Positions 4,509 to 20,425 of a stretch of DNA of 20,425 bases are shown here, one piece after another; the first letter of the stretch is position 1, and each line of letters opens with the position of its first letter. The stretch spans positions 1-20,425 of IMG/VR virus record IMGVR_UViG_3300031688_000180; one strand, written 5' to 3'. A program made the position numbers and the translations under genes. A model generated the notes under the pieces. The model ran no database searches. It was not told the origin of the DNA and saw only the letters and a list, made by a program, of their open reading frames with translations. Source of the DNA: a virus.

Positions 4509-5342
4509 ATGGCTAACACAACTTCGATTAATAGTGAACTGTTTCAGAACCTTTTGGTTCAGTCGCAAATTGCACTATATGAAAACTCTGTTGCACGTTC
4601 AGTAGCAACAGTATTTGACTACCCAGCTGGTGCTGGTAAAGTAGTTTCTGTTCCAGTATGGGCAGGAATGTCATCTAGCAAACCTGGTGAGGGCACAGCT
4701 CCTTCTGCAGGCACTACAAACACAACATCTGTAAGTATTACACTTGCTGAGCACGTTGTATACAATCAAGTTACTGATTTCTTACGCGATAGTGCGTCAG
4801 AAGATGTAATTTCTACACTTGCTAACCAAAGTGGTATGGCAATTGCTGAAGGCTTAGACGCTGAATTGATCGGATTATTTGCATCAGTTACACAGTCACT
4901 AGGCGCGGCAGGCACTGATAACACAGTTAACGACTTGATGAAAGCTTCTGCGATGATTCGTGCAAACAAGTATCAAGGTCCATTATTTTGCATCTTAAAC
5001 CCTAAACAGGCTTATGGTGTTAAAGCGGCTTTAACTGCAACTAACAACTACCAGAACAGTTCTTCTGTTGCTGATGCTGTAATGAGTAACTACTACGTAG
5101 GCTCTATTGCTGGCATTACAGTTCTGGAGCACGCCGGCGTTGCTATTGACGGTGACGACGATGCAATTGGTTGCGTATTTGCACCACAAGCATTCGGACT
5201 TGCTCAGCGTGGCGGAATCGATATGGAAACTGATCGTCAAGCTAAAGAACGTGCTACTGATGTTGTAATGACTGCGGTTGCAGGCACAGCTATTCTACGT
5301 CCAGAACTTGCTGTTAAAATCGTAGGCGACGCGGCACTATAA
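4509..5342 (+). CDS. Major capsid protein, HK97 fold
   Basis: This 277-residue protein is preceded by TAAGGAGATATAACA, a strong ribosome site. It begins MANTTSINSELFQNLLVQSQ and continues with the P-AGAGK-V-VPVW segment (about residues 38-51), which fits the N-arm and E-loop of small HK97-fold coats common in marine phages. A long helix follows (about 95-125, DVISTLANQSGMAIAEGLDA), then the P-domain with LFCILNPKQAYGVKAAL (about 158-174). The last part (GIDMETDRQAKERATDV and onward) forms the A-domain and C-terminal strand. It has no long N-terminal delta domain, which fits with a separate scaffold gene. It is likely the most abundant virion protein. Confidence 0.93.
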   Translation: MANTTSINSELFQNLLVQSQIALYENSVARSVATVFDYPAGAGKVVSVPVWAGMSSSKPGEGTAPSAGTTNTTSVSITLAEHVVYNQVTDFLRDSASEDVISTLANQSGMAIAEGLDAELIGLFASVTQSLGAAGTDNTVNDLMKASAMIRANKYQGPLFCILNPKQAYGVKAALTATNNYQNSSSVADAVMSNYYVGSIAGITVLEHAGVAIDGDDDAIGCVFAPQAFGLAQRGGIDMETDRQAKERATDVVMTAVAGTAILRPELAVKIVGDAAL

Positions 5343-7586: not shown

Positions 7587-7842
7587 AATAGGTCCACACT
7601 TAAACAAGAAGAATAAGCGTCTCCGCACCATCCCTAAAGAAGCCTACGATGTATTCAAAGAAGCAACACCAGTAAGAAGTGGTAATGCTCGCAGAAAAAC
7701 ACGACTACAAGGCACAGTAATCAAAGCAGACTATCCTTATGCACAACGATTAGACGATGGTTGGAGCAGACAAGCTCCACAAGGGATGGTTGACCCAACT
7801 ATAAAGTTTATCAAGTCAAAGATAGCGGAAATATTAGGATAA
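7561..7842 (+). CDS. HK97 gp10-like tail completion / neck protein
   Basis: This 93-residue basic protein has ATPVRSGNARRKTRL (about residues 35-49), then ADYPYAQRLDDGWSRQAPQGM (56-76) and a final helix (FIKSKIAEIL). The order P-x-R-[ST]-G-N-x-R, ADYPYA..LD.G.S.QAP.GM is the signature of HK97-gp10-like proteins, which help complete the tail or its joint with the head. The start is inside the 3' end of the chaperone fusion frame, behind GAGAGGGCAAG. It sits between the chaperone and the tape measure, whereas the HK97 relative lies before the tube gene, so the order is rearranged. The tape measure gene begins three bases after its stop. Confidence 0.75.
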   Translation: MKLRLKTSKIGPHLNKKNKRLRTIPKEAYDVFKEATPVRSGNARRKTRLQGTVIKADYPYAQRLDDGWSRQAPQGMVDPTIKFIKSKIAEILG

Positions 7843-7845
7843 GAT

Positions 7846-10764
7846 ATGGCAACTATTAAGGACAAATATGTATTAGACATTGACACCAAAGGTGCAACGT
7901 CCAGTATAATGAGTATCAAAGGTGCAATGGGCGCACTAGCAGGTGCTCTTGCAATACGTGAACTTGTGCAGTTTGGTGCTAGTATTGTTAGTGCAACTAC
8001 ACAGTTTGAAAGATATCAAACAGTCCTAACAACGTTCTTAGGAAGCCAATCAAAAGCCAACGCTGAACTTGCACGCCTTAAAGACTTAGCCAACAGTTTA
8101 CCACAAGACTTAGCAGACGTTACTGAAGCGTTTGTTATCTTTACACGATACGGATTAGACACATCAAGTGAAGCCATTAAAGCGTTCTCAAACATTGCTA
8201 CTGCAAGTGGTAAAAGTTTAGAACAACTAGGCGAAGCACTTGGTGATGCAATGACGGGTCAATATGAACGTCTAAAAGAATTTGGTATTAAAGTATCAAC
8301 AGAGAATAACAAAGTTGTTGCACGTATTGGTGAGGACATTGTTGCCACTGGTAGAACTGCAACTGAATTAACTAGAAACTTAAAAGAACTTGGAAACACA
8401 CGATTTGGTGGAGCGGCAGAAGCAAACGCTGGCACATTAAGTCAATCAATGAGTAACCTTAAAGGTGCTGTATTTGAAGCACAAGTTGCTTTTGGTGAAG
8501 GGTTAAAACCAGCCCTTATTGAAATTACTACGTCGATGGCGGAACTACTCCGTCAAAACGAAGCCCTTGCTGAAAGTTTAGGTGCTGGAGTCGGCGAAGC
8601 ATTAAGAGTAATTGCCGGCGGTGCCAAATTCCTTGCTGAAAATATACATCTTCTTACAACTGCTCTTACTAGTTTTATAGTAATAAAATCAGTTCCGTTC
8701 TTAATTGACATTGCCAAGAAGTTCTTTGCGTTAGGTGCGGCGGTTAGCGACTTAGGCGGACCAATGTTCCGTGCAAAGGATGCCGCTAAAAACTTAATTG
8801 GTAGTTTATTAAAGTTTGGTATTGTTGGAAGAATATTTGCCGCATTTACAGGTCCTGTTGGGCTTGCTGTTGCTGGCATTACTGCATTAGCCGCTGGATT
8901 TAAAGCATTAGGACCAGTAACTGTTGAAGTAAGTGGATTAACAACTACATATGGTGAAATTGCGTCGGCTGTTTTCTTTAGGGTTAAGAAGGCTGTTGTT
9001 GCATTAGCCACTGACATTAGAGAAGGACTTGGCAAAGCATTATCGTTTGTTACTCAGAAAGTTATGAACTTTGCTCGCCCATTAGTTACTGCATTAAACC
9101 TTATGTTAGAGAAAATGTATAGTTTTGTTAATACAGCTATTGGTCTATTTAAGGGCTTTATCCTACAGGTTACAACAGGCATTGGTGACATTCCAAGAAT
9201 GTTCCTTGCGGTGATGAATGCTTCATTAGGTATCATTGGTGACTTTGTTGGTAGAGCAGGATCACAAATTGGCGAACTATGGGATTATATCTTTAGTGGC
9301 GGTGATGATGCTATTGAAAACAGTTTCACAGGCATTGGTGACACCATTGATAAACAACTTGCAAAGATTGGATCAGAGTCAAGTGTTAACTGGAGCGAGT
9401 TAATAGGTGCAGACCATATTGGCAATGCTGTTGACGCAATAACTACACCATTACGTGTTCTCATTGAAGAATATCGTGAAGAACAAGAAGCACTTGCAAA
9501 TGTAGGCAAAGAATATGATGATCATATATTACGTCTAGCAAGAGCCGCTGAGTTGGCTGAAAAGATTGCCAAAGCACAAGCAAAAATTAATGAAGCGATT
9601 GCAGAAGAAAATGAACTTAGAGCAAAATCACTTGCTACATTCCAAGGCACCTTAGACAAGTTTAACGAAGAATACAAATTTAGAACTTCATTAATTAAAT
9701 TAACAGACGATCAAAGAGAAAAAGAAGAACAGCGTTTTGCATTGCAACAGAAGTTAGCAACTGCAATACTTCCAGTTCAAACAAGAATACTTGAACTTGA
9801 ACAGTTAAACACAGACGCATCTAAAGCAAGAATCAAAGTTCTTAAAGATAGCATTGGTGACATTCAAGAAGTTTATGAAACAGAACTTGGCTACTTGGAT
9901 AAAATGGTAGATGCAAGAAACACAGAACTTAGACTCAAACGTGAAAGCGACAGTATTGATCAAGCAAGACTATCAGCTTCAGAAGCAATACTAGAAGTTC
10001 AAGAAAGAATTAACAGAGCAAGTGAAGATGCAAGTCTAGGCGGACTTAGTGGCATCAACAGAGAGCTCAAAGAAATTGAATTAAACGAATTAAGAATAGC
10101 AAGAGCCGCTAAGACACGTATTACAGCACAACTTGAAAAAGGTGTTGATGCAAATATTATTGCAGGCGAACTTGCAAAGATTGATGCTATTACTAAACAG
10201 GCTATTATGAAGCAACAGGACCTTGCTAAAACAGCTTATGAAAATTCAAGGATGTTTAGCACTGGTTGGAAAAAAGCATTTGAAGAATACGAAGACAATG
10301 CAACTAATGCTTCAAAGTCAGCACAACGTATATTTGAAAAGTCAACCAAGGGTATGGAAGACGCCATTGTAGGATTTGCTAAAACAGGTAAGTTTGAATG
10401 GAAGGGATTTGTTAACAGCATCTTAGAAGAATTGTTAAGAAGTCAAGTTCAACAGTTAATTGCCAAGACATTTGGTGGTTTAGGATTGGGCGGGGGCAGT
10501 GGCGGCGGCGGAGGACTGTTTGGAGGGTTCTTTGCAACAGGTGGAATGATTCCCCCAGGGCGTTTTGGTGTTGTCGGAGAGAACGGTCCAGAACTAGTTA
10601 GTGGTCCAGCAAATGTGACACCTAACTTAGGCGGTGGCAATGTAACTTACAACATCAACGCCGTAGATGCAATGAGTTTCAAACAGATGGTAGCACAGGA
10701 TCCAAGTTTCCTGTTTGCCGTTACTGAGCAAGGTAGAAGAACTTTACCGCAAACAAGAAGATAA
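7846..10764 (+). CDS. Tape measure protein
   Basis: At 972 residues this is the longest helical protein in the cluster. Residues about 40-235 hold the conserved tape-measure N-domain (FERYQTVLTTFLGS, then DLADVTEAFVIFTRYGLD). Hydrophobic segments lie near 262-300 and 318-356, candidates for membrane insertion during DNA entry. A long charged coiled coil covers about 535-800. Residues 803-873 match the lambda-type C-terminal domain (STGWKKAFEEYEDNA, MEDAIVGFAKTGKFEWKGF). A Gly-rich linker (878-895) and FATGGMIPPGRFGVVGENGP (896-915) follow, a common tape-measure ending. It fixes tail length: at about 0.15 nm per residue the tail would be near 145 nm. The gene starts three bases after the gp10-like gene with no separate strong ribosome site except AGGATAAG. 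Confidence 0.95.
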   Translation: MATIKDKYVLDIDTKGATSSIMSIKGAMGALAGALAIRELVQFGASIVSATTQFERYQTVLTTFLGSQSKANAELARLKDLANSLPQDLADVTEAFVIFTRYGLDTSSEAIKAFSNIATASGKSLEQLGEALGDAMTGQYERLKEFGIKVSTENNKVVARIGEDIVATGRTATELTRNLKELGNTRFGGAAEANAGTLSQSMSNLKGAVFEAQVAFGEGLKPALIEITTSMAELLRQNEALAESLGAGVGEALRVIAGGAKFLAENIHLLTTALTSFIVIKSVPFLIDIAKKFFALGAAVSDLGGPMFRAKDAAKNLIGSLLKFGIVGRIFAAFTGPVGLAVAGITALAAGFKALGPVTVEVSGLTTTYGEIASAVFFRVKKAVVALATDIREGLGKALSFVTQKVMNFARPLVTALNLMLEKMYSFVNTAIGLFKGFILQVTTGIGDIPRMFLAVMNASLGIIGDFVGRAGSQIGELWDYIFSGGDDAIENSFTGIGDTIDKQLAKIGSESSVNWSELIGADHIGNAVDAITTPLRVLIEEYREEQEALANVGKEYDDHILRLARAAELAEKIAKAQAKINEAIAEENELRAKSLATFQGTLDKFNEEYKFRTSLIKLTDDQREKEEQRFALQQKLATAILPVQTRILELEQLNTDASKARIKVLKDSIGDIQEVYETELGYLDKMVDARNTELRLKRESDSIDQARLSASEAILEVQERINRASEDASLGGLSGINRELKEIELNELRIARAAKTRITAQLEKGVDANIIAGELAKIDAITKQAIMKQQDLAKTAYENSRMFSTGWKKAFEEYEDNATNASKSAQRIFEKSTKGMEDAIVGFAKTGKFEWKGFVNSILEELLRSQVQQLIAKTFGGLGLGGGSGGGGGLFGGFFATGGMIPPGRFGVVGENGPELVSGPANVTPNLGGGNVTYNINAVDAMSFKQMVAQDPSFLFAVTEQGRRTLPQTRR

Positions 10765-10775
10765 GGTAGATAGAT

Positions 10776-11384
10776 ATGTCATTTCAATATGTAATAGATA
10801 ATGCAGAAAATATAAGCATTAGTAAAAGAAAAAGAATTGCTCAAACTGTATCGCGAGCTGGTGTTGTTAAAGCAACAAGTGTTGGCGGTCAAGTATACGA
10901 GTTTAGAGTTCAACTACCAACAGGTCCTAGATGGAGCGATAACAGAGGCTTAATTGAAACTGTTGAAGCATTGGATAGAACTACTGTTGACAACATACAA
11001 ATTAATAAAACAGCCCACAATTACATTAGCGGATACCAAGGCAACTTGTCAAGCACAAGTGGAATAACCGTAAGTTACTCAAGTGGCAATACATTAACAA
11101 TTACTGGTGGTGCAACACTAGGCAGTGGCTTTAGATTCAAAGCAGGCGACTTTATTCAATTAGGGTCATCTGGAAGTGTTTATAACATTGTAGAAGATGT
11201 TGCATTTAACGACAGTAGTATTACAGTTCATCGTCCAGTTAGAGAAACAGCTGGCAACTATACATTATTAGTTGGACAAGATGTATCCTGGAACGTTATT
11301 TGTGTTGAAATGCCAACTTGGACTATCTTTGGTTATGACCAAGTTTCTTGGAGTGGCGGCTTTGTGTTTGTGGAGGCTGTTTAA
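10776..11384 (+). CDS. Distal tail / minor tail protein (kappa)
   Basis: This 202-residue beta-rich protein begins 11 bases after the tape measure gene behind a weak AAGGT site. The N-terminal part (residues 1-80) has SRAGVVKATSVGGQVYEFRV and WSDNRGLIETVEALDR. The middle (about 120-150) has FKAGDFIQLGSSGSVYNIVEDV followed by SITVHRPVRE. This fits a phage minor-tail domain in which a strand-turn GD-x-I-x segment precedes a His-Arg-Pro turn. It occupies the position of lambda gpM or a distal tail protein, linking the tape measure to the tip. The last strand ends in a Trp/Phe/Val-rich run (WSGGFVFVEAV). Its stop overlaps the next start as TAATG. Confidence 0.6.
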   Translation: MSFQYVIDNAENISISKRKRIAQTVSRAGVVKATSVGGQVYEFRVQLPTGPRWSDNRGLIETVEALDRTTVDNIQINKTAHNYISGYQGNLSSTSGITVSYSSGNTLTITGGATLGSGFRFKAGDFIQLGSSGSVYNIVEDVAFNDSSITVHRPVRETAGNYTLLVGQDVSWNVICVEMPTWTIFGYDQVSWSGGFVFVEAV

Positions 11385-11950
11385 TGAGCATTGATTTAAG
11401 TTCGTATCGTGACATTCAAACTAACTTATTTGTTAAAATGGATGTGCCTGGATATCAAGTATTAACATTCAGTGATTACCATAAAGACTACACTATTGGT
11501 GCTACAACCTATCAAGCCCTAGGCGAGTTGTTAACAGTTACTAACACAACTGATGAACTTCGTGCAAGCCCAAGAGATTTAACAATAACTATTAGTGGTA
11601 TTCCAAGCGGTAATGTTAGTGAAATATTAAACAATAGAATCAAAGGTAGCAATGTAGTTGTTAGTAGAGCATTCTTTAATTCAACTACTGGAGAACTGTT
11701 ATCAATAGCAGGAAATCCAGCAGGTAAGTTTCACGGCATTGTAAGTAACTTTGAAATTGCAGATGAATTAAGTATGGGCAGTGACTTAGGTGCAATTACA
11801 ATTTCAATAACTGTAACCAGCGTTGTAGAATTATTAAACAATAAAACAAGCGGTCGCAGAACTAACCCATCAGACTTTCCTACAGAATCAAGTATGAGTA
11901 GAGTAAGTGCCCTTGCTAAATCTAACTTTAACTTTGGAGCGCCACAATGA
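11384..11950 (+). CDS. Distal tail / baseplate hub-associated protein (DUF2163- or gpL-like)
   Basis: I choose the ATG at 11384 (188 residues) rather than the in-frame ATG at 11348. GGAGG at 11372-11376 is seven bases upstream, the start overlaps the previous stop as TAATG, and the extra 12 residues of the longer form are Cys/Trp-rich and read from the preceding gene. The protein has FSDYHKDYTIGATTYQALGE (about 32-51), RDLTITISGIP (about 65-75), then KFHGIVSNFEI and ITISITVTSVVELLNNKTSGRR near the end. This resembles the N-domain of DUF2163 proteins and lambda gpL-like tip proteins, which have a FTDHD...G..Y entry and a paired beta body. No NlpC/P60 peptidase gene follows. Confidence 0.62.
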   Translation: MSIDLSSYRDIQTNLFVKMDVPGYQVLTFSDYHKDYTIGATTYQALGELLTVTNTTDELRASPRDLTITISGIPSGNVSEILNNRIKGSNVVVSRAFFNSTTGELLSIAGNPAGKFHGIVSNFEIADELSMGSDLGAITISITVTSVVELLNNKTSGRRTNPSDFPTESSMSRVSALAKSNFNFGAPQ

Positions 11951-14900
11951 GTTTCTTAAGCGGTATAGTAAACTTTGGTAAAAGTGCTTTAGGTTTCTTA
12001 GGTGGCAACAGCATTGGAAGTAGTTTAGTTAAAACTGCATTGCTTGGATATGCTGTTAACAAGATGTCTAAAAGTGTTCTTAAAGAAAATGACACTAAAG
12101 GAAGCGGAAGCACATCAAACATTGACAAGGGTGTTAGACTTCAAGTAAAGCCTAACGCAGAAGCAAAGATACCAGTCCTTTATGGCGATGCATTCTTTGG
12201 AGGCAACATATCAGATGCCGCTATGACAAATGCCAACAAGACAATGTGGTATTGCTTAACACTTGCTGAAAAGACAGGCACAGCTTTGTCAGGCGGTGCA
12301 ACAACTTACACATTCCAAGATGTGTATTGGAATCAACAACGTATTGTATTTCAAGCAGATGGTATTACTGCTGATTATGCTGTTGATAGTAATGGAACAA
12401 TTGATAGAAGTATTAGTGGCTTAGTTAAAGTCTATCTATACGCAGGGTCAAGTTCCAATGGACAAATTCCAACTGGTTATAGTGGCACAGTTCCAAACTC
12501 TGACACAGTATTTCCTAATTGGACCAGTAGCACACATCCAATGACAAATCTAGTATTTGCGTTGGTAAGGGTTGATTACAACCGTGAAAAGAACGTCACT
12601 GGTATTGCTGATATGCTATTCCAAGTAGAAAGCAGTATGAAGAAACCAGGTGATGTATTATATGATTATCTAACTTCAACGGTATATGGTGCGGGTATAC
12701 CAACAGTAGAAATAGACACCACAAGCGTGTCCGCTTTAAACACCTATAGTGCAGAAAGCGTTTCATACAATGACGAAGGCACTGGAGCACAAACACTTCC
12801 AGATAGATATCAAATTAACGGTTTAGTTGATACAGACGAAACTGTATTAAGAAACGCAGAGCAAATATGTAGTTCAACTGCAACTTGGTTAAGTTATGAC
12901 ACCCACGAGGGCAAGTGGGGAGTTGTTATTAACAAGGCAGGAACTACAGTTGCAAGTTTCAGCGATACAAACATACTAGGCAACATTAGCGTTGGCGGCA
13001 CAGGACTTCAAGACTTATATAATAGTGTCAAGGTAGAATTTCCACACAGGGATTTACGTGATAGTGCGGACTTTATTAAGATTGAAATACCAGCAAATTT
13101 ACGAAACGCTAATGAACCTGACAACACATTAAACATCACTTACGATAATATCAATGAACCAGTTCAAGCAGAACAGTTAGGATTTATTGAATTAAAGCAG
13201 AGTCGTGTTGACTTAGTAATACAATTTGAAACAGACTTTAGTTACATTAATCTAAAAGCTGGTGATGTCATTGATGTCACTAACGATAGGTATTCGTTTA
13301 CTAGCAAGTTATTTAGAATTGTTACAATTACAGAACGTCAAGACAATGACGGTGCTTTAATGATGGAAGTAACAGCATTAGAATACGATGCTGATGTTTA
13401 TAGTGTTTCAAATATTACTCGATTTACTAGAAGTAGTGCAAACGGTATTATTAGTATTGGTGCTATTGGAACTCCATCTACTCCACAAGTTACAAAGTTT
13501 GAAAGAGCAAGTCGTCCTCGTATTGAAATTGAAGTAAACACACCGACTGGTGTTGTTGAAGGATTAGAATATTGGGTATCATTTGATTACACAGAAACTG
13601 ACGATACTTTGCGTAGTTACACATTAGTTGGAACAAAGAAACCACTTGGTGGTGGAGTGTTTACAAGTAGCACTCAAGTTGTGTTTGAATATGCAAATCT
13701 TAATGCACAAAACTTTTATGTCAAAGTTAGAGGATTTAACACAACAGCGGTTGGTCCTTATAGTAATGTAAGTGGCCTAGTTGAATTTATACCTGAGCAA
13801 GTTCCAGACGCTATTACACCTGACACAAGTATTTTAGATTCAACTGGAGGACTTGCAACTGCATTAGGCATTGTTAGTTTGTTAAACAACATAGATGGAT
13901 TGTTTGGATCATCGCCTAACCAATCAGGCGGATTGTTTAGTAAGATATTTGATGTGTTCAATGACGAGACTGGTATCGACTTAGTTGGCGATGCGGCCGC
14001 TGGCAATTTAGTAGTTGCGGCAAACATTGCAGTCCAAGAAGAAGGTGCTAATGTAGTAAGTCAGGTATCAGCAATTAACTTTGTTGGAGATGACCTTACT
14101 GTAACTGCTAACGGAACTGTTGTTACAGTTACACACAATGACACTCACGGTGGTGGCGGCGGTGATGGTGGTGATGGTGGCGGAACACCTCCTACTCCAG
14201 CCTTAGTTGTAAGCACAACACTACCTCCTGATAGAACAACATATCAAGCCGGCACATCAGTTACTCTGCCAAACCAAGCAACAATTACAGGCAGTTACTT
14301 TATATCGTGGAGTTATAATAGCGGAAATATCTTTGGTGCTATTAGCTTAGGAACAGGCAATGCTAAGTTATACAAAAGTGATGGAACTTTAGTTCAAACA
14401 TTAGCCGCAATAGCTTGTAGTGTTAGTGGCAATACTTTAGAATTACCGTTTTCAAACAGAGACTTAAAAACTGATTATTACATATTATTAGATGCAGGAT
14501 TAGTTACATATTGCGGAATTAATAGTGTGGCTATTGACAGTCCGTTATCTTGGAACTTTAATACACCTAATGTTTCTAAACCAGCATATGCTATGTCAGG
14601 AACAGGTGCTACTACTAACTTTTCAATTACAGCAAGTGTTGACACTTGCGGAACTACACTAACTGTTACCGGAACAGGTATTACAGCAATGGCCACTGGT
14701 AGTAGCATAACAATAGATGGTGGAGCAAATTTAGGCACACCTACAATTTCAGGAGTTGTTGCAAGTATTCCAATCAGTGGAACAGCAACGTCAACAACTT
14801 ATAATATTACACTACCTGATGGTGCATTTACTGGTGGTGATTCTTGTTTTTCTGGAGCAACTAGTGGTGCTAACACAGTTAGTTTTACCATTGGCGTTAA

Positions 14901-15471
14901 TATGTTATTGGTAGATTATCACACAAACAGTGGGGTTTTTGAACCAACTGCTCTTGACACTAACGTTAACGCCCAAAGTAATATTCGACTTGAGTTTAAT
15001 CAAAATGTTACTTTAGGAACTGGCAATATAAACATATACACAATTAGCGGTTCGTTACATCAACAAATACCTGTTACAGCAAACTTTGCCTCAGACAATA
15101 CAAGTGAACTTATTTGGGCAATTGGCGACTCAGTTTACATAAACCCAACAGTGGATATGATCAAAGGCACACCTTACTATATACTAGCAGACGCCGGAAG
15201 TGTAGTAGGAACTTGCTCTACACCTTGGGGAGAAACATCGTCTAGTGCTATTGCGTGGACAGTTGATCCAGGCCCAAGTATTGCAAGTGTTGATCCAATT
15301 GGATCAACAGGAGTTTACGGCAATACCAATTCTGTTAATGAAACAGGACTTGCATTAAATATAGATAGAACTGTTACAGTAGGCACTGGGAATTATGTAA
15401 TCTACGATAGTAATAATACAGTAGTTGCAACTATTCCATCCACAGATCCTAGAATAACATACGGAGCATAA
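11947..15471 (+). CDS. Tail tip hub protein (gpJ-like) with FN3 and Ig-like repeats, first part
   Basis: This protein of 1,174 residues overlaps the previous stop as ATGA. Residues 1-45 are hydrophobic and Gly/Ser-rich. About 60-500 look like the hub core of J-type tip proteins, including AKIPVLYGDAFFGGN, LVRVDYNREKN and TVYGAGIPTVEID. About 510-615 is fibronectin-III-like. A hydrophobic stretch with GLATALGIVSLL and the motif AINFVGDDLTV (709-719) leads to a Gly/Asp-rich hinge (735-746). Ig-like repeats of the SbsA/Big_5 type then occupy about 750-873 and 980-1106, each with a GTGN...IY turn and a closing YYIL..AG. A third repeat begins at about 1110 and is cut by TAA 15469-15471. The next frame continues it in the same phase. 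It probably forms the central tip fibre that meets the host receptor. Confidence 0.85.
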   Translation: MSFLSGIVNFGKSALGFLGGNSIGSSLVKTALLGYAVNKMSKSVLKENDTKGSGSTSNIDKGVRLQVKPNAEAKIPVLYGDAFFGGNISDAAMTNANKTMWYCLTLAEKTGTALSGGATTYTFQDVYWNQQRIVFQADGITADYAVDSNGTIDRSISGLVKVYLYAGSSSNGQIPTGYSGTVPNSDTVFPNWTSSTHPMTNLVFALVRVDYNREKNVTGIADMLFQVESSMKKPGDVLYDYLTSTVYGAGIPTVEIDTTSVSALNTYSAESVSYNDEGTGAQTLPDRYQINGLVDTDETVLRNAEQICSSTATWLSYDTHEGKWGVVINKAGTTVASFSDTNILGNISVGGTGLQDLYNSVKVEFPHRDLRDSADFIKIEIPANLRNANEPDNTLNITYDNINEPVQAEQLGFIELKQSRVDLVIQFETDFSYINLKAGDVIDVTNDRYSFTSKLFRIVTITERQDNDGALMMEVTALEYDADVYSVSNITRFTRSSANGIISIGAIGTPSTPQVTKFERASRPRIEIEVNTPTGVVEGLEYWVSFDYTETDDTLRSYTLVGTKKPLGGGVFTSSTQVVFEYANLNAQNFYVKVRGFNTTAVGPYSNVSGLVEFIPEQVPDAITPDTSILDSTGGLATALGIVSLLNNIDGLFGSSPNQSGGLFSKIFDVFNDETGIDLVGDAAAGNLVVAANIAVQEEGANVVSQVSAINFVGDDLTVTANGTVVTVTHNDTHGGGGGDGGDGGGTPPTPALVVSTTLPPDRTTYQAGTSVTLPNQATITGSYFISWSYNSGNIFGAISLGTGNAKLYKSDGTLVQTLAAIACSVSGNTLELPFSNRDLKTDYYILLDAGLVTYCGINSVAIDSPLSWNFNTPNVSKPAYAMSGTGATTNFSITASVDTCGTTLTVTGTGITAMATGSSITIDGGANLGTPTISGVVASIPISGTATSTTYNITLPDGAFTGGDSCFSGATSGANTVSFTIGVNMLLVDYHTNSGVFEPTALDTNVNAQSNIRLEFNQNVTLGTGNINIYTISGSLHQQIPVTANFASDNTSELIWAIGDSVYINPTVDMIKGTPYYILADAGSVVGTCSTPWGETSSSAIAWTVDPGPSIASVDPIGSTGVYGNTNSVNETGLALNIDRTVTVGTGNYVIYDSNNTVVATIPSTDPRITYGA
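15469..15471 (+). other. In-frame TAA inside an Ig-like repeat
   Basis: TAA follows GGA-GCA and precedes GAT-ATG. The frame on both sides is the same, since 11947 and 15475 differ by a multiple of three. Aligning the third repeat with the fourth places this codon in the turn between two strands: RITYGA and MKITVD correspond to VDIHS and DKIYLE of the next repeat. A GGAG at 15463-15466 lies eight bases before ATG 15475, and the same junction string TAAGATATG occurs at 7840-7848, where it separates two true genes. Restart, read-through, natural nonsense change and assembly error all remain possible. Confidence 0.9.
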
Positions 15472-15474
15472 GAT

Positions 15475-18474
15475 ATGAAGATTACAGTAGATACCAAAGG
15501 ATTATTAACTTGGTTACCAGGAGAAACTTACAGACTTGAAATTGAGGCTGGAGCAATTATTGACAGTCTAGGTGATTCAAACCTGACACTTACAAATGCA
15601 AGAGCTTTTACAACTAACTCAACAGGACCAACAAAGTATGATAGTGTTCCTATCAATAATGCTGTTGACGTTATATTAGACAATGAAATAACAATACAAT
15701 ATAACAGATTCCTTGAAGCATCAACTGGAAGTCTTCATTTATACAAAGTAGGTTCGCCTGATGTATTAGTTAAAACATACGTTGCCGCCGATATAGAAGT
15801 AGATATACACAGTGACAAAATATATTTAGAAACTTTTGGATTATTAGAAAGCGGGCAATCTTATTATGTGCTTGTTGATAGTAGTGCAGTTACTGATTTA
15901 GACGGATTTGCCGCTCCAGCAGTAACAAGCACAACTGACATTTCGTTTACTACAAGTTCTACACTATTTCCATCACAAAGCACCTTTTATGTAGCAAACA
16001 CAGTAGGTGAAGGATCTTATCTAGTTGATTCTAATATACCAATAGGAAACACTCCATTAGTTGCACCAACTGGCAACAACATTAATTTCACTGTTCAAGT
16101 TGTATCTAATCAATCAGCAGTTGATAATATTGAGTTTGGCGCATATGCAGACTATGAACTATCCCAAACTATTATTAATCCTGACCCTGACACTTACAAC
16201 GCCGGCGGAGTTCAACTTGAGGGCTTTGGTAGCCAAGTGCAATTTTCATCCGATAATTTAACAATGGTTACTTCTGCTTACCAAGATAACAGCATAGGCG
16301 AAGTTTACGTTTATACTAGAAGTTCAACTAACGCAAACTTTACATTATTTCAAACAATTCAACACAGCGGTGGCGGAGTAAGTAGCTTTGGTAGAATAGT
16401 GCGATTAAGCGACAATGGAAAAACTTTAGTTATTGGTTCCGCTTATAAAGCACACATATTTAGAAGAGGAACTTCTGGAACTCAATACGTCCAGGTTACT
16501 GAAGTCTTTCCAGGACCTGGAGCAGACGGAATTGATGCATTCCAAGCAGACGTAATGAATGTAAGTGGCGATGGCATTTGGGTTATAGTATCTAAACAAA
16601 ATTCATCACACAACTATAACACTGATGCTCCTATACTAATGTTATACCAATGGAATACTACTGCTGTTTCATATAATTTTGTTAGAAATATATCACTAAG
16701 TGAAACTGGACTTACTGGAACTACAAGTGGACAATTAAGAAGTGTTAAGTTAAATTATTATGGAAATAAATTTATTGCTCCATTTACAACTTATACATCT
16801 GGAACTTTTACTGCAACTGGTTACAATGTATTGCATTGGAGTATTTCTAACTACTCTCCGTGGGTCGCTGTTTCAAACTACATTGCTACTAATGTCGACG
16901 GCATTCTAAATAATAGTATATCTGGCAATTATTCGTTAATCAATAATGATCTTTATGACAGCTTTGTGTATGATCAGTCCTTAACAAACGATGCTAATAA
17001 TCCAGCATTCTTAACAAGCATATTTGGTAAAATTGTTTCACAGCGCCGTATATGGGATACATTTAATGCTGGCGCAACTTGGGTTAGACGTAGTGAATAT
17101 TTTAATTTTCCAGCAACGTTATCCAGCGATGCTCAGATTTACGCTATTAGTCCAGACGGTGAATACATTGCCGACGTTCCTACATATCAAGAACTGAGCT
17201 TTGAAATTTATCAAATTAATCCAACTATAAGTTTTCCTTGGGATAATACTACAAAAACACTAACTATTAATTCTACAGATAATACTGTGGCAAACATCCT
17301 CCCAACATTAAAGTTAGACGTTAATGCAATTCCGTCTTCTTATAATGGAGAAATAAAATTAAAATATACGTTTGATACTACTGTTGCAGGTGGTGCAGGC
17401 GTTGGAACATTATACAGGTATCAACGTGCTTATGATGGAATACGTTATAGAGTAGATCCAATAACATTATCAGTTAATACATCACTAAGTGCATTAGGAA
17501 ATACTAGTAGCACACTAACATCAACACCTAACACTCAATTTTCGTTAGTATGTAGTGGTGAAATTACTTGGCAGTTTATTACAACTACACCAGGTTACCA
17601 AACTTACGGTCCACACGATTCGGCTGGTAGTGACAACTATTACTTTGTCCAAGAAAATTTCTCAACTGCCAGAATTAGATCTATGGCAACTAGTGCAACT
17701 ATATCTAACACTACATATACTAGAGATTATAGCTCATCAACCAATTGGTCAGCAATGACTGATACTACTTTACTGTTTAACGACAACAACTCTAGCACCA
17801 CAAGCCTATATAATACTGTAACCGGAACATTGATTAGATCATATGGTGGAACAACTGGTGGAGACATTAGCACCAATGGCAATTATGTAATTGACAACAA
17901 AGTATATAACAGCGCCGGATCTACATTACAGACGCTATCGGGTTGGAACGCTAACCGCCTGGCAAAAATAAGTAACAATTATGTAGCACATCTTCCAAAT
18001 ACAACTACTTTAGCTAATGGTGCCTATGTATACCAAGCAAAAGTCATTAATATATCCGCCGGAACATCATACTTAATTAATCCAAGTTCGTCATCTGTAA
18101 CCATCAGTGACATTGCTGTGTCAGACACACACGTTGTTGTTGAAGAATATCATAACTCAACATTTGCGAGAACATCACGAATAATTAATGCTTCAACTGG
18201 AGTGGATGCGTTTAGTATTAGTAGACCCAGTGGATTCCAGGACATTGCCGCCATAAATTCAAAATATGTTATAGTGAAAAAAGGAACCTCTGCAAATTCT
18301 TACTATGAGGTTAGAAATATGGCAGGCACATTATACAGAACTATATTGCTTACAAGTATGGGTATTGCCAATAGCAACACACAAACTAAGATAATAGATA
18401 TGTCAGAAAATGCTTTATATATTTCAACTAAAATACAAACAGACGATTGGCGATTAATAAAAGCAATAATTTAA
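15475..18474 (+). CDS. Tail fibre protein, second part: Ig-like repeats and two beta-propellers
   Basis: This 999-residue frame continues the previous one in phase. Residues 1-47 complete the interrupted Ig-like repeat (LPGETYRLEIEAGAIIDSLG). Residues 52-161 are a fourth repeat (VPINNAVDVILDNEITIQYN, then YYVLVDSSAVTD). About 215-590 resemble an FG-GAP (integrin-alpha-type) propeller: FGSQVQFSSDNLTMV...GEVYVYTR at 251-282 and FGRIVRLSDNGKTLVIGSA at 305-323. About 760-999 have at least five blade-like turns (TVTGTLIRSY, NSAGSTLQTL, NISAGTSYLI, NASTGVDAFS, NMAGTLYRTI). Propellers at a tail tip would suit glycan or protein receptor binding. GGAG is present as a ribosome site. An intrinsic terminator overlaps the stop. 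Confidence 0.85.
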   Translation: MKITVDTKGLLTWLPGETYRLEIEAGAIIDSLGDSNLTLTNARAFTTNSTGPTKYDSVPINNAVDVILDNEITIQYNRFLEASTGSLHLYKVGSPDVLVKTYVAADIEVDIHSDKIYLETFGLLESGQSYYVLVDSSAVTDLDGFAAPAVTSTTDISFTTSSTLFPSQSTFYVANTVGEGSYLVDSNIPIGNTPLVAPTGNNINFTVQVVSNQSAVDNIEFGAYADYELSQTIINPDPDTYNAGGVQLEGFGSQVQFSSDNLTMVTSAYQDNSIGEVYVYTRSSTNANFTLFQTIQHSGGGVSSFGRIVRLSDNGKTLVIGSAYKAHIFRRGTSGTQYVQVTEVFPGPGADGIDAFQADVMNVSGDGIWVIVSKQNSSHNYNTDAPILMLYQWNTTAVSYNFVRNISLSETGLTGTTSGQLRSVKLNYYGNKFIAPFTTYTSGTFTATGYNVLHWSISNYSPWVAVSNYIATNVDGILNNSISGNYSLINNDLYDSFVYDQSLTNDANNPAFLTSIFGKIVSQRRIWDTFNAGATWVRRSEYFNFPATLSSDAQIYAISPDGEYIADVPTYQELSFEIYQINPTISFPWDNTTKTLTINSTDNTVANILPTLKLDVNAIPSSYNGEIKLKYTFDTTVAGGAGVGTLYRYQRAYDGIRYRVDPITLSVNTSLSALGNTSSTLTSTPNTQFSLVCSGEITWQFITTTPGYQTYGPHDSAGSDNYYFVQENFSTARIRSMATSATISNTTYTRDYSSSTNWSAMTDTTLLFNDNNSSTTSLYNTVTGTLIRSYGGTTGGDISTNGNYVIDNKVYNSAGSTLQTLSGWNANRLAKISNNYVAHLPNTTTLANGAYVYQAKVINISAGTSYLINPSSSSVTISDIAVSDTHVVVEEYHNSTFARTSRIINASTGVDAFSISRPSGFQDIAAINSKYVIVKKGTSANSYYEVRNMAGTLYRTILLTSMGIANSNTQTKIIDMSENALYISTKIQTDDWRLIKAII

Positions 18475-18590: not shown

Positions 18591-18983
18591 ATGTCAGCCG
18601 CATCAGATCACACAGAAAACCTAGCCTTAAACTATCTATTAACCGCAAGTTCGGTAGCACGACCATCCGTTTGGTATGTCGCATTATTTACATCCGACGC
18701 TGGTTTAGAAGCAGGCAATATAACAGGTGAATGCAATGGAACAGATTATGTTCGTAAAACTGTCGCATTTACAGTAACAACCAACTCAGCAACTAATAAC
18801 GGTGCTGTAACATTTGACCCAGCTGGTTCAGGTGGTTGGGGAACAGTAACTCACGTTGCAGTAATGGACGCCTCAACATCAGGTTCTGTTTTGTTCCACG
18901 GCGCGGTTACCACCAGTAAAACTCTAGACGAAAATGACACTTTTCAAATTAGCGACTCAAATTTGACAATTAGCTTAAACTAA
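18591..18983 (+). CDS. Phage tail fibre-like protein of a common marine family
   Basis: This 130-residue beta-rich protein has a strong ribosome site (AGGAGA at 18579-18584). The order WYVALFTSDAGLEAG (about 28-42), then YVRKTVAFTV and AGSGGWGTVTHVAVMDAST, then SVLFHGAVTTSKTLDENDTFQI is a familiar pattern in phage proteins near tail fibres (W..LFT..PG, R..V.F, GWG.ITHF.I.D). It is thought to be a small virion or fibre component, although its exact role is not established. The end of the gene lies in the first copy of a 16-bp tandem repeat, so its last codons TTA-AAC-TAA are duplicated downstream. Confidence 0.75.
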   Translation: MSAASDHTENLALNYLLTASSVARPSVWYVALFTSDAGLEAGNITGECNGTDYVRKTVAFTVTTNSATNNGAVTFDPAGSGGWGTVTHVAVMDASTSGSVLFHGAVTTSKTLDENDTFQISDSNLTISLN

Positions 18984-19578: not shown

Positions 19579-20425
19579 ATGTTAGGAATCCAGCGTAACG
19601 CACTTATTGGGGCTATGGCTTATCAATGGCAAAGCGCCGGAGCAGGTGCTGGTGCTGGTGGCGGAGCAGGTGGCGGAGCAGGCACAAGAACTGCATCAAC
19701 ACAAACAGCGAATGGCCAAGCGGCAATTACTTCGTCACAATTTAAATACGGAAGCGGCGCTTTACAACTTGACGGCACAGGCGATTATGTAGTGTCTAGT
19801 TTAACCACCGCCACAGCAAGTGAATTTACGTGGGAAACTTGGTTCAGAGTTGACGTAGATGCTGGCCAAGGCACAGTTGCTATTCTTTCAAACAGATCTG
19901 GTGGTTATGGCAATGGCGACATTATGATGTTGTTTAGAAACTACGATATGAAAGTTCAAGTTAACGGGGCGGGCGGAACTGCCTCCTTTAATGCAAACGG
20001 AGTTGGAAGTGCGTTAGCAGTTGATCAGTGGCACCACTTTGCATTTGCGAGAGACAACAGTAACAATGTAGCTGTATGGGTCAATGGCTCAAGAGTTGCC
20101 AATGGCACGTGGGATGGAGCAGTTTTTGACAATGGCTCAGGACTTGGAATTGGCGCACATAGTGATGGTGGCATTCCAGCAAACTCAGGAACAACTGCTT
20201 GGATCGACGAAGTTAGAATTTCAACTGTTGATAGATACGGTGTAAGTAATACAACTATTGCACCTCCGGCAAGTCAGTTTACAAATGACGCTGATACTAT
20301 GCTATTATTACATTTTGACACTGATTTAACAGATGATGTTACTGGAGCTGGTGCAGGCGGTGGAGCAGGCGGTGGAGCAGGTGCTGGTGCTGGTGGCGGA
20401 ACTTATACAGTTAGAGCAGACTCTA
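19579..20425 (+). CDS. Tail fibre / adhesin with LamG lectin domain, 3' end outside the window
   Basis: The frame is open from ATG 19579 to the window edge (282 codons). It has AAGGA ten bases upstream. Residues 1-18 form a short head (MLGIQRNALIGAMAYQWQ), like the start of other marine phage fibre proteins. Residues 19-35 are Gly/Ala only. About 50-250 are a LamG/concanavalin-like lectin domain with SGALQLDGTGDYV, FTWETWFRV, WHHFAFAR (151-158), VAVWVNGSRV and AWIDEVRIS (207-215), then FTNDADTMLLLHFD. A second Gly/Ala linker follows at 256-274. The domain would bind surface sugars of the host, and the linkers suggest a string of exchangeable modules. It is in a different frame from the previous gene. 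Confidence 0.85.
   Translation, partial: MLGIQRNALIGAMAYQWQSAGAGAGAGGGAGGGAGTRTASTQTANGQAAITSSQFKYGSGALQLDGTGDYVVSSLTTATASEFTWETWFRVDVDAGQGTVAILSNRSGGYGNGDIMMLFRNYDMKVQVNGAGGTASFNANGVGSALAVDQWHHFAFARDNSNNVAVWVNGSRVANGTWDGAVFDNGSGLGIGAHSDGGIPANSGTTAWIDEVRISTVDRYGVSNTTIAPPASQFTNDADTMLLLHFDTDLTDDVTGAGAGGGAGGGAGAGAGGGTYTVRADS
19639..19665 (+). repeat. 27-bp direct repeat, copy 1 (Gly/Ala linker)
   Basis: This 27-base stretch, starting GGAGCAGGTGCTGG and ending GGTGGCGGA, is identical to 20374-20400. It codes for part of the Gly/Ala linker before the LamG domain, and related GGN-GCN units surround both copies. Exact identity at the DNA level in both linkers suggests recent duplication or recombination rather than protein-level convergence. 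Confidence 0.9.
20374..20400 (+). repeat. 27-bp direct repeat, copy 2 (Gly/Ala linker)
   Basis: This is identical to 19639-19665 and lies after the LamG domain in the same reading frame. Together the two copies bracket about 710 bases that code for one lectin module, and the linker continues upstream from 20347 with the related units GGAGCTGGTGCAGGC and GGTGGAGCAGGC. The sequence that follows (TYTVRADS) is not a repeat of the segment after copy 1. Confidence 0.9.

Follow-up and report, generated by a model that had tools for sequence, protein, structure and literature searches.

A gene boundary conserved inside an Ig-like domain between the predicted tail hub and fiber genes of tailed phages

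Two long open reading frames of a virus record (20,425 bases, analyzed in full and called the window here) lie in the same phase with an in-frame UAA between them, and an Ig-like repeat appears to run across that stop. The question that this locus raises is whether it encodes one long fiber protein that is interrupted by the stop, or two proteins that each carry part of one folded domain. The window contains a structural module of the tailed-phage type, with terminase, major head protein, tape measure and tail genes. Its features of interest are:

7846-10764: tape measure, upstream of the J-like gene
10776-11384: distal tail-like gene, between the tape measure and the tail protein gene
11348-11950: tail protein gene, directly before the J-like gene
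11947-15471, plus strand: J-like tail-tip hub gene (gene 1; 1174 aa; tblastn, Pfam), C-terminal end assigned as the first half of an Ig-like domain
14890-15270, plus strand: complete Ig-like repeat preceding the split one (Pfam Big_5, profile)
15304-15468, plus strand: predicted first half of the split Ig-like domain, at the end of protein 1 (profile 11-57; strands 21-67 of the fused model)
15463-15466, plus strand: GGAG, Shine-Dalgarno of gene 2, within the end of gene 1 and 8 nt before the ATG at 15475
15469-15471, plus strand: TAA stop of gene 1, in the predicted hairpin turn of the Ig-like domain
15475-18474, plus strand: fiber gene (gene 2; 999 aa), N-terminal start assigned as the second half of an Ig-like domain
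15475-15621, plus strand: predicted second half of the split Ig-like domain, at the start of protein 2 (profile 72-117; strands 72-116 of the fused model)
15640-15957, plus strand: whole Ig-like repeat of protein 2, following the split one (repeat alignment; homologous stretch in gene 2 of the relative L024)

By tblastn, residues 60-616 of protein 1 matched the host specificity protein J of Methylophilaceae phage P19250A (30.9% identity, E = 1e-70) over 557 residues of the hub region, and 874 phage records matched the protein at E = 1e-3 or better. T5-type hub proteins were matched as well, with weak similarity to that family, and the Pfam family Phage-tail_3 was placed on the protein with E = 0.0013, under its curated cut-off. 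The order from tape measure through distal tail-like gene and tail protein gene to 11947-15471 fits the position of the lambda gpJ or T5 pb3 hub, and homology in the hub region combined with gene position identifies the product as a predicted tail-tip hub protein of this type. Relatives of gene 1 were not found in a scan of genome contigs, and gene 2 of the window, the putative fiber gene, had no match among annotated phages. In a contig 99% identical to the window (L006), the J-like gene is broken at 4656-4677 by a frame change near residue 420, either an error or a mutation.

The frames 11947-15471 and 15475-18474 are in the same phase, as the first-pass annotation of the window had claimed, and meet at GCA TAA GAT ATG. 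A second distinct contig (L001/L004), with 3 differences in 12,951 bases, has the identical TAA, and an assembly error is therefore unlikely. The GGAG that had been pointed out eight bases before the ATG is present, with an energy against the anti-Shine-Dalgarno sequence of -5.8 kcal/mol that is within the range of other window genes; an energy as good is found at 5.8% of other ATGs. Reuse at the junction of a sequence seen at 7840 (TAAGATATG) had also been cited in favor of separate translation. It proved weak support, with two exact copies and one-mismatch copies at chance level (10 found, 7.6 expected), and was dropped as evidence.

Pfam Big_5 covered residues 999-1086 of protein 1 with E = 3.5e-4 and 21.7 bits (curated cut-off 23.6), while protein 2 had no Pfam match, Big_5 included. 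When we compared both proteins with a profile built from the complete neighboring repeats, using 100 shuffles per sequence (2200 in all) as the control, the end of protein 1 matched positions 11-57 with 10.0 bits (best of its own 100 shuffles, 5.9) and the start of protein 2 matched positions 72-117 with 9.8 bits (best of its own 100 shuffles, 5.3); a single one of the 2200 shuffles scored 10.0 bits. The corresponding stretch of L024 matched positions 72-115 with 6.0 bits, a score that did not exceed its own shuffles. Several global alignments misplaced the half-domain fragments and were left out of the evidence. From these profile positions, we assign the two protein ends that flank the stop as complementary halves of one Ig-like domain.

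The window domain was then modeled with a serine in place of the stop, the chains joined and whole repeats in the input alignment. It was predicted to form one Ig-like sandwich (mean pLDDT 72; core 80-93), in which the stop (residue 69) falls in the turn that connects strand 64-67 to strand 72-76; the earlier suggestions that the repeat runs across the stop and that the stop falls between two β-strands are both borne out by the profile and this model. Its best match among solved structures was the S-layer protein SbsC (4uic), with a Z-score of 9.2 and an rmsd of 2.7 for 97 residues over 14-120, spanning the stop, and the viral models that it matched included entries named SbsA Ig-like and tip attachment protein J. 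The model thus places the split domain with the predicted Ig-like domains of the SbsA/SbsC (Big_5) kind. All it demonstrates is that a single Ig domain can accommodate the two halves; on separate chains meeting it says nothing. A low-confidence model of the in-phase pair of the relative L017 has both parts at pLDDT 55-78, their strands grouped around an insert that is disordered. In alignments with many single Ig domains, residues 118/127 to about 330 of this model matched over 70-100 residues at Z 4-5. The joined models are compatible with strand complementation between chains.

Scanning with the gene 1 start yielded 24 viral loci, to which a scan with the relatives' gene 2 start added L033, L036 and L038; extra scans with L024, L036 and L019 found no further window-type junctions. 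Each locus that has this kind of fiber gene and reaches the junction has the same plan. There are 11 distinct junctions, the window counted, and in these a common point marks the end of the half-Ig in gene 1, the stop codon lying 6-13 residues past an invariant Asp in 10 of the 11. Examples of these ends are IPSTDPRITYGA in the window, LPSDDSSITYS in L024, ISPLDLAVQIKYNERF in L009, IANTDSVLEYSNTPFTE in L019 and VSAKDPVVKFQHNVPFQD in L017. The exception is L013 (identical in L015 and L016), which has 89 extra residues after the half-Ig and whose gene 2 start had no match among annotated phages. The last 89 codons of the J-like gene in these three loci resemble the fiber protein repeats, so an insert at the split site may be possible on either side of the gene boundary.

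At all 11 junctions the ATG of gene 2, with a Shine-Dalgarno sequence, lies 3-16 nt past the stop of gene 1. Gene 2 is out of phase with gene 1 at eight of them, and at seven of these eight the open frames do not overlap, a stop of its own closing the gene 2 frame downstream of the gene 1 stop; at the remaining one, L013, the frames overlap by 5 nt. The three in-phase junctions (window, L017 and L033) are close to the one third that chance would give. L024, whose gene 2 lies in a different frame, nevertheless has a second half of this kind at the start of that gene. Purifying selection was detected on both halves in six closer pairs (dN/dS 0.07-0.35), the window-L024 pair being too diverged to judge. 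The first-pass annotation had proposed a comparison of related phages, in which a conserved stop with a ribosome site would mean a true split and homologs with the boundary outside the Ig-like domain would speak against one; stop and ribosome site are conserved at 11 distinct junctions, so the split is a true one, and the boundary is inside the domain at all 11. On this comparison, the split is a conserved gene boundary inside a predicted Ig-like domain, between two separately translated genes. The far ends of gene 2 vary (FG-GAP, DUF285, DUF285 with Laminin_G, and Big_3_5), as expected of exchangeable, presumably receptor-binding, parts.

The junctions differ in where the second half lies. 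In the window and L024, gene 2 opens with it. The other 9 of the 11 start gene 2 with a conserved repeat stretch (consensus MATLSASAKL..VDKNISAALTS), and a segment of the form FPTYxxIDxExL..LPEGTxCxLxFEEGW..FxTFRTPK comes 77-153 residues into the gene. The pattern of this segment is like that of the Ig second half, and one alignment put the window half on it; a profile comparison of the segment with the second half was not significant (score 15.2, shuffled maximum 23.8). On the strength of the low-confidence L017 model, we take this segment as a likely candidate for the second Ig half in the nine junctions.

Natural controls that lack this fiber gene were three only (L005, L023 and L025). The first 686 residues of protein 1 are 88-89% identical between L005 and the window, after which L005 has a different C-terminus and no such fiber gene. 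The J-like gene of L025 ends in a complete Ig (profile 8-119, 56.9 bits), and no such Ig was found at the hub gene ends of L005 and L023. Because these three controls end the hub in a complete Ig or otherwise, the half-Ig is associated with the presence of the fiber gene.

On the sequence evidence, the central fiber is encoded as two proteins by adjacent genes whose boundary falls within an Ig-like domain. The hub protein is predicted to end after the first Ig strands, and the fiber protein, translated from its own ribosome site, to carry the remaining ones. We propose that the halves pair between the chains and fasten an exchangeable fiber to the hub, a reading to which we give a probability of roughly 70%. 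On assembly, the half-domain of the hub chain would pair with that of the fiber chain to form a composite Ig, which would act as a non-covalent plug fixing the fiber to the hub and would let fibers with different receptor-binding ends be swapped on a conserved hub. Hub and fiber may both be trimers if lambda and T5 are a guide. The pairing of both chains into one Ig is what we infer from sequence and the joined models. A broader proposal, which we hold tentatively and at slightly less than even odds, is that a naturally split Ig is the general plug and socket between hub and fiber in this phage lineage, that the insert at the split marks a branching point, and that unrelated receptor-binding ends have been swapped behind it.

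Among the alternatives, the one we take most seriously, though we think it unlikely, is that the two genes are real and no composite domain forms: the half-Ig of the hub would fold otherwise, for example with its own copies in the trimer, and the start of the fiber protein would be a relic or would pack apart. It draws on the nine of 11 junctions in which the presumed second half is not recognizable by sequence and sits 77-153 residues into gene 2. Against it stand the direct second halves of the window and L024, the selection that keeps both halves in the insert group, the way in which the half-Ig tracks the fiber gene, and the L017 model, which makes one sandwich of both parts. The other two alternatives would make a single product of the long frames, and the first-pass annotation had listed both beside separate translation. 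Low-level suppression of the UAA at 15469-15471 would yield some full-length fiber of 2,175 codons, the shorter products being accessory. The shared phase in the window, L017 and L033 is as this would have it, but so many would be expected by chance, and eight of the 11 junctions are out of phase. Since seven of them also lack any overlap of open frames, neither readthrough nor a single frameshift joins the products there; the downstream frame is unreachable from gene 1, and programmed readthrough or frameshifting is thereby rejected as a common mechanism. Moreover, a ribosome site of its own precedes gene 2, and a search of the window found no structured element 3' of the stop (fold z 0.66), no Rfam match and, in all 20,425 bases, no tRNA. 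Readthrough is thus excluded as a shared mechanism; in the window itself a trace may occur, and as an account of the locus we rate suppression as very improbable. Less probable still is a nonsense mutation or assembly error in one copy of a single long fiber gene, for which nothing speaks except the shared phase of the two frames and their spacing of a single codon. The second contig has the same TAA, and ten other diverged junctions share the boundary, with ribosome sites; a nonsense variant is refuted by this recurrence. Of the three options in the first-pass annotation, then, the relatives support separate translation of two chains with a common domain, given 11 junctions with their own ribosome sites, eight of them out of phase.

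The proposed two-protein joint can be compared with known tail tips. In T5 the hub pb3 and the central fiber pb4 are two chains from two genes, with two FNIII domains on pb3 and three on pb4 that touch by loops (PMC10038345, PMC10713586). The window resembles T5 in having hub and central fiber as two genes with a string of Ig-like (FNIII) domains across the joint; it differs in that the pb3-pb4 boundary lies between whole domains (PMC10038345), whereas that of the window family lies inside one. Lambda has hub, fiber and receptor-binding part in one gpJ chain (PMC10721106). Shared with it are a J-type hub followed by Ig-like domains and fiber; unlike the window pair, gpJ is a single chain, and the part shared between gpL and gpJ is elsewhere in the hub, not at the fiber joint. 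The C-terminus of lambda gpL supplies a part that gpJ lacks and is therefore a precedent for a hub domain shared across a gene boundary. In L023, L024 and L025 a split near residue 256-260 (about 750 nt in) divides the hub gene into two that are read in different frames, which recalls the gpL/gpJ division.

In the donor-strand complementation of pili, one chain completes the β-sheet of another. In phage DT57C, LtfA donates strands to LtfC (PMC10713586). Common to these cases and the proposed joint is that one chain completes or extends the β-sheet of the other in a firm non-covalent joint; the difference is that one or two strands are added there, whereas here each chain would bring about half an Ig to the proposed pairing. 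We found no report of a split Ig domain at a phage hub-fiber joint in the open-access literature searched, which does not prove absence.

Gene boundaries normally lie between folded domains, and one conserved inside a domain would be a sequence signature of an obligate two-protein joint. The split Ig leads to a testable proposal on how a J-type hub holds its fibers and how these are swapped. Annotators are also cautioned that a stop within such a domain does not mark a pseudogene. As a natural pair, the split Ig halves could be put to use as a tool for joining proteins.

Several other features of the locus were observed. Within gene 1, positions 15288-15309 form a perfect 22-nt palindrome (TGTTGATCCAATTGGATCAACA), the longest in the window; an equally long one occurred in 1 of 30 random sequences, and the stretch is absent from L024. 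On the 3' side of the fiber gene, a small gene at 18591-18983 belongs to the Gp80 'podophage GP4 fiber I' family (PF23140, E = 1.2e-30), and a gene start resembling it comes after the J-like gene of L005. The open frame at 19579-20425, which is cut by the end of the window, contains a Laminin_G_3 domain flanked by Gly-Ala-rich linkers (GAGAGGGAGGGAG).
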